Virus record (IMG/VR): IMGVR_UViG_3300008450_000172 | Coordinates: 1 to 36,171 of that record | Reading direction: 5' to 3' (one strand) | DNA length: 36,171 bases | From: a virus | Part shown: piece after piece, positions 28,768 through 30,994 of the stretch | How positions within the stretch are numbered: the first letter of the stretch is position 1 | How the letters are laid out: every line of letters starts with the position of its first letter | Notes under the pieces: generated by a model | Database searches by the model: none | What the model was told of the DNA's origin: nothing | What the model saw: only the letters and a program-made list of their open reading frames with translations | Program-made: the position numbers and the translations under genes

Positions 28768-28962
28768 TCAGACCTCGGAAACTTGTTTCTTGCTACGCTT
28801 TTTGGCGGCTTGCATGCGAATGAGCGCAGCCTGCACACGGTCAGCGATTCGGGCGCTCAAAACGTCAGGCCAGCCGTTGACAGCCTGCGGAGTTACCCCT
28901 ATCGCACGGGCTGCAATGCTTGGAGTTCCACCAAGAAGTTCGATAGCTTTTTGTTTATCCAT
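28768..28962 (-). CDS. Cro-like repressor (YdaS type) (64 aa)
   Basis: Starts at ATG 28962; the frame to 29001 only covers operator DNA. Residues 6-32 form a helix-turn-helix (IELLGGTPSIAARAIGVTPQ then AVNGWPDVLSARIADRV) of the Cro/YdaS kind, with a basic tail (AAKKRSKKQVSEV). It is divergent from the CI-like gene, with operators between them. The start codon is six bases after the -10 TTTAAT, so the mRNA is predicted leaderless. Likely shuts off repressor and early promoters in lytic growth. Confidence 0.82.
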   Translation of the reverse strand: MDKQKAIELLGGTPSIAARAIGVTPQAVNGWPDVLSARIADRVQAALIRMQAAKKRSKKQVSEV

Positions 28963-28968
28963 GCCCCA

Positions 28969-28997
28969 ATTAAAGCATTCTTTTCCGACAAATGCAA
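28969..28997 (-). promoter_or_regulatory. Right early promoter (PR analogue)
   Basis: On the - strand TTGCAT (28997-28992), 17 bp, TTTAAT (28974-28969). Six bases then lead to the cro ATG. It has the same layout as the left early promoter at 30336-30364. Confidence 0.75.
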
Positions 28998-29006
28998 GCA
29001 TTCTTT
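28972..29006. promoter_or_regulatory. Right operator pair
   Basis: AAAGCATTCTTT (28972-28983) and AAGCATTCTTT (28996-29006), 23 bp centre to centre. One copy lies between -35 and -10 and the other covers the -35 of the cro promoter. Their reverse complements recur with the same spacing at 30327-30361. Confidence 0.8.
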
Positions 29007-29018
29007 AATTGATGAACC

Positions 29019-29024
29019 CATAAT
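29019..29024 (+). promoter_or_regulatory. -10 of the repressor promoter (PRM analogue)
   Basis: CATAAT, six bases before the GTG start of the repressor. There is no clear -35 at 17 bp; operator DNA lies there, as expected for a promoter needing activation. Leaderless, as lambda cI mRNA from PRM. Confidence 0.58.
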
Positions 29025-29030
29025 TTCTTT

Positions 29031-29498
29031 GTGAGCTACGGAAAAAGATTGGGTGAGGCTTTGACGTTCGCGAAGAAGGAACGCAAGGAGCTTGCTGACG
29101 CCCTTGAGGTGTCAGTTCAGGCCATAGGACAGGTGTTACTTGGAAAGACTGCCGCACTCACCGCAGAGAACAGCGCACACGCAGCGCGTTATCTAAAGGT
29201 CAACCACCATTGGTTGGCTACAGGTGAGGGGGAAATGATGGACAACAAGAACCCGCCGTCCAATGCGGCTAACGATGCTGGCGCAGAGTTTTCGCCGTTT
29301 GCTCGTTCGCTGGCTCGGATATACGACAGCCTACCAACAGACGATCTAGACTCTCTAACTCGTGTGCATCACGACGCATGCGCTTTGCTTCTTGCTTACG
29401 GAGATCAGAGGCTAGGCCGTCTGCCCACGCCAGCGCCTGCGAGTAATCCAGAAACACCACCCTCAGCGCCCCAGAAGACGACAAGTCGGAGCAAATAG
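29031..29498 (+). CDS. CI-like repressor without peptidase domain (155 aa)
   Basis: GTG start six bases after CATAAT. Residues 1-60 are a helix-turn-helix (FAKKERKELADALEVSVQAI then GQVLLGKTAALT) followed by LKVNHHWLATGEGEM, the usual end of this domain. The C-terminus (FARSLARIYDSLPTDDLDSL, HHDACALLLAYG) is helical, and then Pro/Thr rich. No S24/LexA-type Ser-Lys protease part is present, so RecA-dependent self-cleavage is unlikely; another induction route would be needed. Its last 230 bases are antisense to the gene at 29269-29790. Probably holds both operator pairs in the lysogen. Confidence 0.8.
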   Translation: MSYGKRLGEALTFAKKERKELADALEVSVQAIGQVLLGKTAALTAENSAHAARYLKVNHHWLATGEGEMMDNKNPPSNAANDAGAEFSPFARSLARIYDSLPTDDLDSLTRVHHDACALLLAYGDQRLGRLPTPAPASNPETPPSAPQKTTSRSK

Positions 29499-29790
29499 CC
29501 CGCACCGCTTCGTATTGCTCGGGGCTGCACACCACCGCTCCAGGTATCTTGCGGTTCATGAAGCGCACCCGCGCAGCTTCTGGCATAGATTTGAAGGCCA
29601 ACATAGCCCGATCTAGGCGCACAAGCATCACGCGCCCTTTGGCTGCTTCTTCCAGCGCCTTGCCTGTAAGCGCTTCTATGGCGTCCTCGGTAAACACCCC
29701 AAAGTAATCGACCTGAATAGCCCCGCTTTGACCAACGGGGTGAATTTTTATGCTGGCTGATTTATACCGATGCGTTTGGACGATGCACAT
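29269..29790 (-). CDS. Unknown protein antisense to the repressor 3' half (173 aa)
   Basis: Long - strand frame whose first 97 codons lie outside the repressor and look truly coding: IKIHPVGQSGAIQVDYFGVF, KGRVMLVRLDRAMLAFKSMP, GAVVCSPEQYEAVRAICSD, ALRVVFLDYSQALAWADGL. Alternating strands and helices recall a small STAS-like alpha/beta domain, but that is only an impression. The last 76 codons overlap the repressor on the other strand. No strong ribosome site; TTTATA with a fitting -35-like CTGACT lies right at the ATG. Family unknown. Confidence 0.62.
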   Translation of the reverse strand: MCIVQTHRYKSASIKIHPVGQSGAIQVDYFGVFTEDAIEALTGKALEEAAKGRVMLVRLDRAMLAFKSMPEAARVRFMNRKIPGAVVCSPEQYEAVRAICSDLSSSGALRVVFLDYSQALAWADGLASDLRKQEAKRMRRDAHELESLDRLLVGCRISEPANEQTAKTLRQHR

Positions 29791-29907
29791 ATAAATTGGC
29801 TATTGACTTATTAGTCAGCATTGTTTCATTCTGTAACAGAGTCGTCATCCCCCAAACGGGTGAATCAATGGGTGTTCATCAGCCAAATGCAAGAAAACCC
29901 ACAATTC
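29791..29907. other. Non-coding gap with palindrome TGACTTATTAGTCA
   Basis: 117 bases between the antisense gene and the lipoprotein gene. At 29804-29817 there is an inverted repeat (TGACT, four bases, AGTCA), placed where it could control the - strand gene starting at 29790. Nothing else is recognised. Confidence 0.5.
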
Positions 29908-30243
29908 CTAGTCGCAAATTGTTTGATATGCGTCGCCAATCCTGCGCGTAGTGCAAACCTGTTGCCTTGGCATAGGTAGTGGCCTGAACTGCGGCTGCGA
30001 CTGCTTGAGCAGGTCTAGGCTCTGCGCTTCAATGCCAATCCGCGCATTGATGACGCCCATGTGTGCATTGCAGTTCTCACCACGCCGCGCTATCTCGCTC
30101 AAGGCTTGATCTTGCGACACCCAGAAGTTGCCACGCACGGCAATTTCACAAAGCCGAGCGCTTGAGTATTCGGCTATCGGTGCCGGTGGTTGTGTAGCGC
30201 ACCCGCTCAGGGCGATTGCCGCCGCTGCTATTAATTTCTTCAT
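29908..30243 (-). CDS. Lipoprotein, possible lysogeny-expressed cargo (111 aa)
   Basis: Starts MKKLIAAAAIALSGCATQPP: a lipoprotein signal peptide with lipobox LSGC and acylated Cys15. The mature part has further cysteines (LCEIAV, ENCNAH, VCTTRR, ICD) and a repeat-free helical middle (QALSEIARRGENC, LDLLKQSQPQFRPL). A strong site (GGAGG) precedes the ATG. It sits in the immunity region on the strand opposite to the repressor, with its own candidate promoter. Superinfection exclusion or other surface change is a plausible role by analogy with phage lipoproteins; no direct evidence. Confidence 0.8.
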   Translation of the reverse strand: MKKLIAAAAIALSGCATQPPAPIAEYSSARLCEIAVRGNFWVSQDQALSEIARRGENCNAHMGVINARIGIEAQSLDLLKQSQPQFRPLPMPRQQVCTTRRIGDAYQTICD

Positions 30244-30254
30244 TCATTCCTCCA

Positions 30255-30298
30255 GTTGGTTGACTCCAACGAATAGCCATCTGCGCGGCTTTTCGCAA
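30255..30298 (-). promoter_or_regulatory. Candidate lipoprotein promoter and operator
   Basis: On the - strand TTGCGA (30298-30293), 17 bp, TATTCG (30275-30270), a weak -10. An inverted repeat GTTGG/CCAAC (30255-30270) lies just downstream, ahead of the ribosome site. Confidence 0.38.
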
Positions 30299-30326
30299 TT
30301 TTAAGGGTCGTCTGCAAAAAATATTT

Positions 30327-30364
30327 AAAGAATGCTTGCACTGCTTGAGAAAGAATGCTTTAAT
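30327..30364 (+). promoter_or_regulatory. Left early promoter (PL analogue) with operator pair
   Basis: TTGCAC (30336-30341), 17 bp, TTTAAT (30359-30364). Operators AAAGAATGCTT (30327-30337) and AAAGAATGCTTT (30350-30361) are 23 bp apart, as at the right promoter. An ATG follows six bases after the -10, so the transcript would be leaderless. Confidence 0.78.
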
Positions 30365-30370
30365 ACACCC

Positions 30371-30517
30371 ATGCCGCAAACAAAGCGGAGCAGCAAGCAG
30401 ATCGAGGCTAGCGAGGGTTCTTTAACACAGTCAATTCAAGTGGATAGCAAAGAGGCACAGGCAAGCGTGACCCGATTGCAGGAGCTTGACGGATTCCGCG
30501 ACGTGAGCAGCGGATGA
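30371..30517 (+). CDS. Leaderless small ORF at the head of the left operon (48 aa)
   Basis: ATG at the expected transcription start (six bases after -10), matching the cro start on the other side. The product (MPQTKRSSKQIEASEGSLTQ, SVTRLQELDGFRDVSSG) is polar and unrecognised. A boxA-like TTCTTTAACA lies inside the frame, so this may be a leader RNA for antitermination, a real peptide, or both. Confidence 0.5.
   Translation: MPQTKRSSKQIEASEGSLTQSIQVDSKEAQASVTRLQELDGFRDVSSG
30418..30427 (+). promoter_or_regulatory. boxA-like element TTCTTTAACA
   Basis: Matches the TCTTTAACA core of the bacterial rRNA boxA, about 50 bases into the left early transcript. Part of a candidate nut-type site. Confidence 0.45.
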
Positions 30518-30742: not shown

Positions 30743-30994
30743 ATGACATTGATGGAGGAAATCTACATTGCCCAACGTAACGCAGGAGAGTTGGCAGTAA
30801 TTGCAAACCTTGAGCGTCAGGGGCTTGTTCCGAAAAAAGATCAACCACGGGCCGGTGTCTTGCAACGCTGCCTATCAGTCATTTCTACGCTTGAGGGCGA
30901 ATGCACCACCGAACAGGAAATGCTTGATGCCCTCACCAAAGATATTAAGCAGGAGCTTGGAATAAACCAACTTGTCCCCGGTAGCTTGATCTAA
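30743..30994 (+). CDS. First main gene of the left operon; N-like position (83 or 110 aa)
   Basis: AAGGAG six bases upstream supports ATG 30743 (83 aa). The frame is open from ATG 30662 (110 aa), which would add an Arg/Lys-rich N-terminus with RGRKHKRRDRG, like the RNA-binding arm of lambda N (107 aa). The common part (EEIYIAQRNAGELAVIANLE, EQEMLDALTKDIKQELGINQ) is helical and matches no family I know. A candidate nut region lies upstream and a terminator directly after the gene, as with lambda N and tL1. The antiterminator role is inference. Confidence 0.7.
   Translation: MTLMEEIYIAQRNAGELAVIANLERQGLVPKKDQPRAGVLQRCLSVISTLEGECTTEQEMLDALTKDIKQELGINQLVPGSLI

Follow-up and report, generated by a model that had tools for sequence, protein, structure and literature searches.

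A lambda-type immunity region with a probable leaderless cro gene and a mirrored left promoter in a 36-kb viral sequence

Leaderless initiation in phages of the Proteobacteria is usually discussed for repressors, and a leaderless repressor message is the known lambda-like case. The cro gene of lambda has a leader with a Shine–Dalgarno sequence. Leaderless translation responds to the state of the ribosome and to the initiation factors differently from normal initiation. In phage PY54, only leaderless cI and cro messages were found by 5′ RACE, and its Cro protein binds a single operator, OR3 (PMC4488713). In the PaaR2/YdaS system of CP-933P, a leaderless message has been reported for paaR2 and not for ydaS (PMC8630535). 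The leaderless mRNAs of Burkholderia cenocepacia are enriched for regulators (PMC4603805).

The DNA analyzed here is a stretch of 36,171 nucleotides of viral origin, referred to below as the window. It contains a mirrored pair of promoters and operators, corresponding to OR/PR and OL/PL in an immunity region of the lambda type:

28771–28962, minus strand: cro-like gene of 64 amino acids with its ATG at 28962, predicted to be leaderless; relatives begin at the same codon
28969–28974, minus strand: −10 hexamer of PR, TTTAAT, six bases 5′ of the cro ATG
28972–28983, minus strand: operator adjoining the PR −10, AAAGAATGCTTT
28992–28997, minus strand: −35 hexamer of PR, TTGCAT, 17 bp from the −10
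28995–29006, minus strand: operator adjoining the PR −35, AAAGAATGCTTG
29019–29024, plus strand: putative −10 hexamer of PRM, CATAAT, six bases before the GTG at 29031; most relatives have a −10-like hexamer 6–8 nt upstream
29031–29498, plus strand: repressor gene of 155 amino acids with a GTG start and a helix-turn-helix, predicted to be leaderless; matches phrog_2328, transcriptional repressor (7e-9)
30327–30338, plus strand: left operator adjoining the PL −35, AAAGAATGCTTG
30336–30341, plus strand: −35 hexamer of PL, TTGCAC
30350–30361, plus strand: left operator adjoining the PL −10, AAAGAATGCTTT
30359–30364, plus strand: −10 hexamer of PL, TTTAAT

The order cro–PR–PRM–repressor–PL is that of lambda, as are the operators repeated at both lytic promoters and the repressor message, predicted here, that starts leaderless from PRM. 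Unlike lambda, the window has two clear operators per promoter, a cro gene without a Shine–Dalgarno sequence and with no predicted leader, and a short repressor in which no peptidase domain was detected. As in PY54, both the repressor and the cro message are predicted to begin at the start codon, while the operators of the window lie across both lytic promoters, PL included, in contrast to the single site bound by PY54 Cro (PMC4488713). CP-933P shares with the window a short repressor, a leaderless repressor message (predicted in the window), a YdaS-type Cro and a PL with similar repeats, although the operator repeats themselves differ (PMC8630535); no toxin-antitoxin genes were recognized in the window.

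The reading judged highly probable is an immunity region of a temperate phage, in which the cro message begins at its AUG, the repressor message probably does likewise, and the ATG at PL is fortuitous and followed by a noncoding leader. PR (minus strand, around 28990) would drive cro together with the genes for replication, PL (plus strand, around 30350) the left early operon, and PRM (plus strand, around 29020) the repressor. As the same two operators overlap both lytic promoters, the 155-amino acid repressor, and probably Cro too, could shut both. Transcription from PR most likely starts at the A of the cro AUG; Cro would then be made solely from PR-initiated RNA and by leaderless initiation. 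On the minus strand, cro is followed by a replication initiator gene and by DnaB-like and Nin-like genes, the last two named from sequence.

The mirrored architecture rests on an inverted repeat of 40 nt (28969–29008 and 30325–30364), with arms 85% complementary and 1316 nt apart. The best match of the 45-mer of the cro promoter to the opposite strand of the window is 35/45, compared with at most 23/45 for shuffled queries. When one mismatch or fewer is allowed, AAAGAATGCTTT occurs exactly four times in the 36 kb, as two pairs that each have a 23-bp spacing. The minus strand reads TTGCAT-17-TTTAAT-TGGGGC-ATG at PR, with the ATG at 28962–28960, and the plus strand reads TTGCAC-17-TTTAAT-ACACCC-ATG at PL, with the ATG at 30371–30373. 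The initial annotation had described mirrored promoters with identical operator pairs and six bases between −10 and ATG, and the repeat and the four-site count bear out both its coordinates and its geometry. A generic sigma-70 promoter scan of the window returned zero sites, because the scan demands an A at the second position of the −10; the promoters of the window were assigned from the repeat and from relatives.

Relatives of Cro were collected in three scans followed by one later scan, giving 60 + 38 = 98 non-identical loci. The relatives with named hosts belong mostly to the Burkholderiales (Comamonas, Achromobacter, Variovorax, Pseudacidovorax, Aquabacterium). A search with the exact operator-pair pattern and one of viral contigs with the repressor as query each returned no relatives, and annotated phages held neither similar DNA nor a similar Cro protein. 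The 64-amino acid protein resembles P22_Cro (2e-4, 21.5 of 30.2 bits) and YdaS_toxin (6e-5, 23.1 of 30 bits) in Pfam, in both cases below the gathering score. Models of defence systems gave marginal helix-turn-helix matches alone.

The start of cro has a nearly constant geometry among these loci. In 95 of the 98, 5–7 nt separate the cro ATG from the end of a −10-like hexamer. In the first set, which includes the window, the distance is 5, 6 or 7 nt in 16, 29 and 15 loci, respectively (60/60), and in the second set 35 of 38 loci fall within the same range. The commonest distance is six. The operators of the same loci vary widely (AACnATGGTT-, AAAGnATGCTT-, TTAGC- or GTAAAC-type), so this spacing is retained although the binding sites change. 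The loci behind these counts are not independent of one another phylogenetically. The alignment of the sets was anchored on the ATG, and the accepted −10 hexamers, which include the imperfect TTCAAT and TTTAAT, were listed by eye after the data had been seen. For this reason, the test was repeated with a DNA pattern of the promoter only, the one scan that avoids a post hoc hexamer list. It returned 34 sites, 16 of which have an ATG 5–7 nt after the −10, and each of these ATGs opens this Cro (16/16).

The cro ATG is also nearly always without a ribosome-binding site. A Shine–Dalgarno energy of −4 kcal/mol or lower was found at 2 of 60 cro starts in the first set and 2 of 40 in the second. The corresponding shares are 76% for long ORFs, scored at the best start, 30% for random ATGs and 93% for the first genes after PL. 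This absence is what a leaderless cro, as in PY54, would require. The proposal that cro is leaderless thus gained weight from both the nearly constant −10 distance and the missing Shine–Dalgarno sequence, and a leaderless cro is strongly inferred for the window. A cro leader of 1–5 nt, or a mixture of starts, would result if PR began a few bases off the ATG. The range of 5–7 nt among relatives would allow this, as would the start choice of sigma-70 polymerase, which is generally spread over a few bases. Against such a leader speak the commonest distance of six and the message of PY54 cro, which begins exactly at the AUG, and it is regarded as unlikely. If the message starting at the AUG is a property of the whole group, both sides of the lysis–lysogeny choice would be under leaderless translation.

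The repressor (29031, plus strand) diverges from cro (28962, minus strand), with 68 nt between the start codons and the promoters within that interval. Of 52 loci in which the repressor start was counted, 44 have it 67–73 nt away from the cro ATG, and 70 is the commonest distance. The repressor starts of relatives often fall within a third operator (AACCATGGTT) and are mostly without a Shine–Dalgarno sequence. In many relatives this third operator overlaps the repressor start codon; the OR of the window has two clear operators, and a third, degenerate one may lie where the repressor starts. The repressor of the window is probably leaderless, and would be made by leaderless initiation on PRM RNA.

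The repeated sites had been proposed as operators of the repressor, and the comparison of loci strengthens this assignment. The operator type of the window, AAAGnATGCTT, is accompanied by a YGxRL-type repressor in 6/6 loci that carry it (one of the six, L028, was counted with its repressor start as separately observed), and is rare with other repressors. The nearest relative, L025, differs from the window in both its helix-turn-helix and its operators, which are AAC-type. Operator type and repressor helix-turn-helix therefore change together, which favors the repressor as the protein that would bind the repeated sites. The two repressors are 45% identical. They are close to identical in their C-terminal tails and differ in their DNA-binding halves, as do the operators; the pattern looks as though half of the gene and the operators had been exchanged together.

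Beyond the repressor, the same operators recur at the second promoter, OL/PL, which is followed by these features:

30371–30517, plus strand: open frame of 48 amino acids from the predicted PL +1, unlikely to be a conserved gene; no family, ATG rarely conserved
30374–30388, plus strand: hairpin CCGC-AAACAAA-GCGG in the PL leader, from folding; near-identical sequence in L042 and L046
30416–30427, plus strand: boxA-like site GGTTCTTTAACA, with 2 mismatches to CGCTCTTTAACA
30743–30994, plus strand: first left-operon frame with a strong Shine–Dalgarno sequence (AGGAGAG), 83 amino acids

Most of the relatives whose sequence extends far enough have a mirrored PL, and 74 non-identical PL sites were compared. 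An ATG 4–8 nt after the −10 is found in 6 of these and absent in 68. The commonest triplet at the position of the window ATG is ATC (35/74), within a consensus of ..CC-ATCGC. The promoter-only scan agrees: 18 of its 34 sites are PL-type, and the 2 that have an ATG open frames of 9 and 22 codons. The initial annotation had taken both lytic messages to be leaderless, with the frame at 30371 as a real gene of the left operon read from a 5′-terminal AUG. The PL geometry of the window is indeed identical to that of PR; L060 has an AUG at exactly the same distance from PL, and L042 and L046 have one a base further. These three frames encode, by reading of their sequences, unrelated peptides of 19–36 amino acids. 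L042 and L046 share CACCCATGCCGC..AAACAAAGCGGAGC with the window, and a single extra base shifts the frame. The 48-amino acid product matched no Pfam or PHROG family and had no tblastn match, hence no homologue, among the fetched loci, and the boxA-like site sits within its frame. Across the PL sites there is thus no conserved AUG that opens a conserved frame, and a leaderless left-operon gene is not supported; that it is real after all seems quite improbable, although this phage could yet translate the AUG despite its lack of conservation. By this reading the PL RNA does begin near A30371, with an AUG that is probably incidental. The leaderless lytic promoters had also been put forward as novel, a claim that loses force with the leaderless cro of PY54, seen by 5′ RACE (PMC4488713).

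The favored reading of PL is that of a noncoding leader containing a hairpin and a boxA-like site for antitermination, in which translation would begin downstream at a ribosome-binding site. Of 59 PL leaders, 8 have boxA-like sites, where about 0.4 would be expected from background, and none was found in antisense. The relatives concerned include L018, L086, L091, L103 and L107, and some sites are exact copies of CGCTCTTTAACA. This suggests antitermination, although neither boxB nor a protein like N was assigned in the window. An Rfam search of the window gave no match.

Many relatives have a short PL leader of 19–54 nt that ends with a Shine–Dalgarno sequence and an ATG. In these, the six bases between the −10 and the predicted +1 tend to pair with the Shine–Dalgarno zone, e.g., CTCCATCG...CGATGGAG. 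Loci with a hairpin across the predicted PL start include L021, L047, L053, L059, L069, L075, L150, L151, L166 and L173. The pairing was assessed by exchanging the six spacer bases between loci and comparing the total fold with the native one. The native total was reached in 0/300 permutations of the first set and in 0/2000 of a validation set found afterwards. For both combined the result was 0/5000 (native −523.9 versus −428.8 ± 10.9 kcal/mol). When the fold begins at +1, most of the excess structure disappears (mean z of −0.8 versus −2.4), and no similar hairpin effect was seen at cro. In the long-leader class, which includes the window, the signal of the 6-nt swap is weak. The window itself has weak spacer pairing and does not stand out within this class, so a start-spanning hairpin is not claimed for it.

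The upstream arm of the relatives' hairpin would lie in the six bases that separate −10 and +1 and are not transcribed from PL, and RNA started at PL would lack it. In the short-leader relatives it is likely that read-through RNA hides the ribosome-binding site and that PL-started RNA does not. Hairpins that hide the ribosome-binding site in longer transcripts have been described for T4 endonuclease genes (reviewed in PMC2988022). At the late promoters of I-TevI and segB, as proposed for PL in the relatives, the site is hidden solely in the longer transcripts, and RNA from the local promoter begins within the upstream arm or 3′ of it. Unlike the T4 cases, the hairpins of the relatives are predicted, lie at the repressor-controlled PL of temperate phages, and have no clear form in the window. 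A side observation was made in the PL leaders of L037, L041, L044 and L045, where the first bases, TTCATCAC, recur inverted as GTGATGAA about 100 nt downstream, just 5′ of a ribosome-binding site.

All three promoters of the switch may tie translation to the exact start of transcription, through leaderless Cro and repressor and, in the relatives, through the PL hairpin in read-through RNA. This generalization is tentative and falls somewhat short of being the expected outcome. If true, stray transcription across a silent prophage would yield no lytic regulator, and the PL hairpins offer a simple, testable idea of how such a prophage might avoid leaky lytic expression. The group-wide conservation of leaderless cro and the hairpin at the PL start of the relatives are new with respect to the open papers searched in PubMed Central; earlier reports of leaderless cro in this group may have been missed.

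The repeat also affects how the region is read by annotators. In-frame MLAFVGKECFNWGM and MLALLEKECFNTPM precede the two ATGs in the window, and the KECFN that they encode had been flagged as a possible cause of misplaced starts. In 43 of the 98 loci, the frame 5′ of cro runs into a stop before any alternative start is reached (within 30 nt in 32 of those), so a KECFN-like extension is not a genuine N-terminus and the peptide is a by-product of the repeat, as the flag had implied. Genes beginning at the ATGs 29001 and 30332 inside the operators, with MLA..KECFN as a common N-terminus, are compatible with the open upstream frames of the window and yet highly implausible, given those 43 closed frames, the nature of the repeat as mirrored operator DNA at both promoters and the lack of a conserved ORF after PL. 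Mirrored operators can thus yield both false upstream starts and a false leaderless gene at PL.

Two further frames lie on the minus strand between cro and PL. An open frame of 173 amino acids (29269–29790), of unassigned family, shares 230 nt with the 3′ end of the repressor gene, in antisense. L025 retains both, the frame at 79% identity versus 45% for the repressor, and L068 and L148 have weaker matches to the frame at a comparable position. Between the repressor and PL, 29908–30243 encodes a small predicted lipoprotein with weak matches to the T4 Spackle and Cor superinfection-exclusion families, and is a possible superinfection-exclusion gene.
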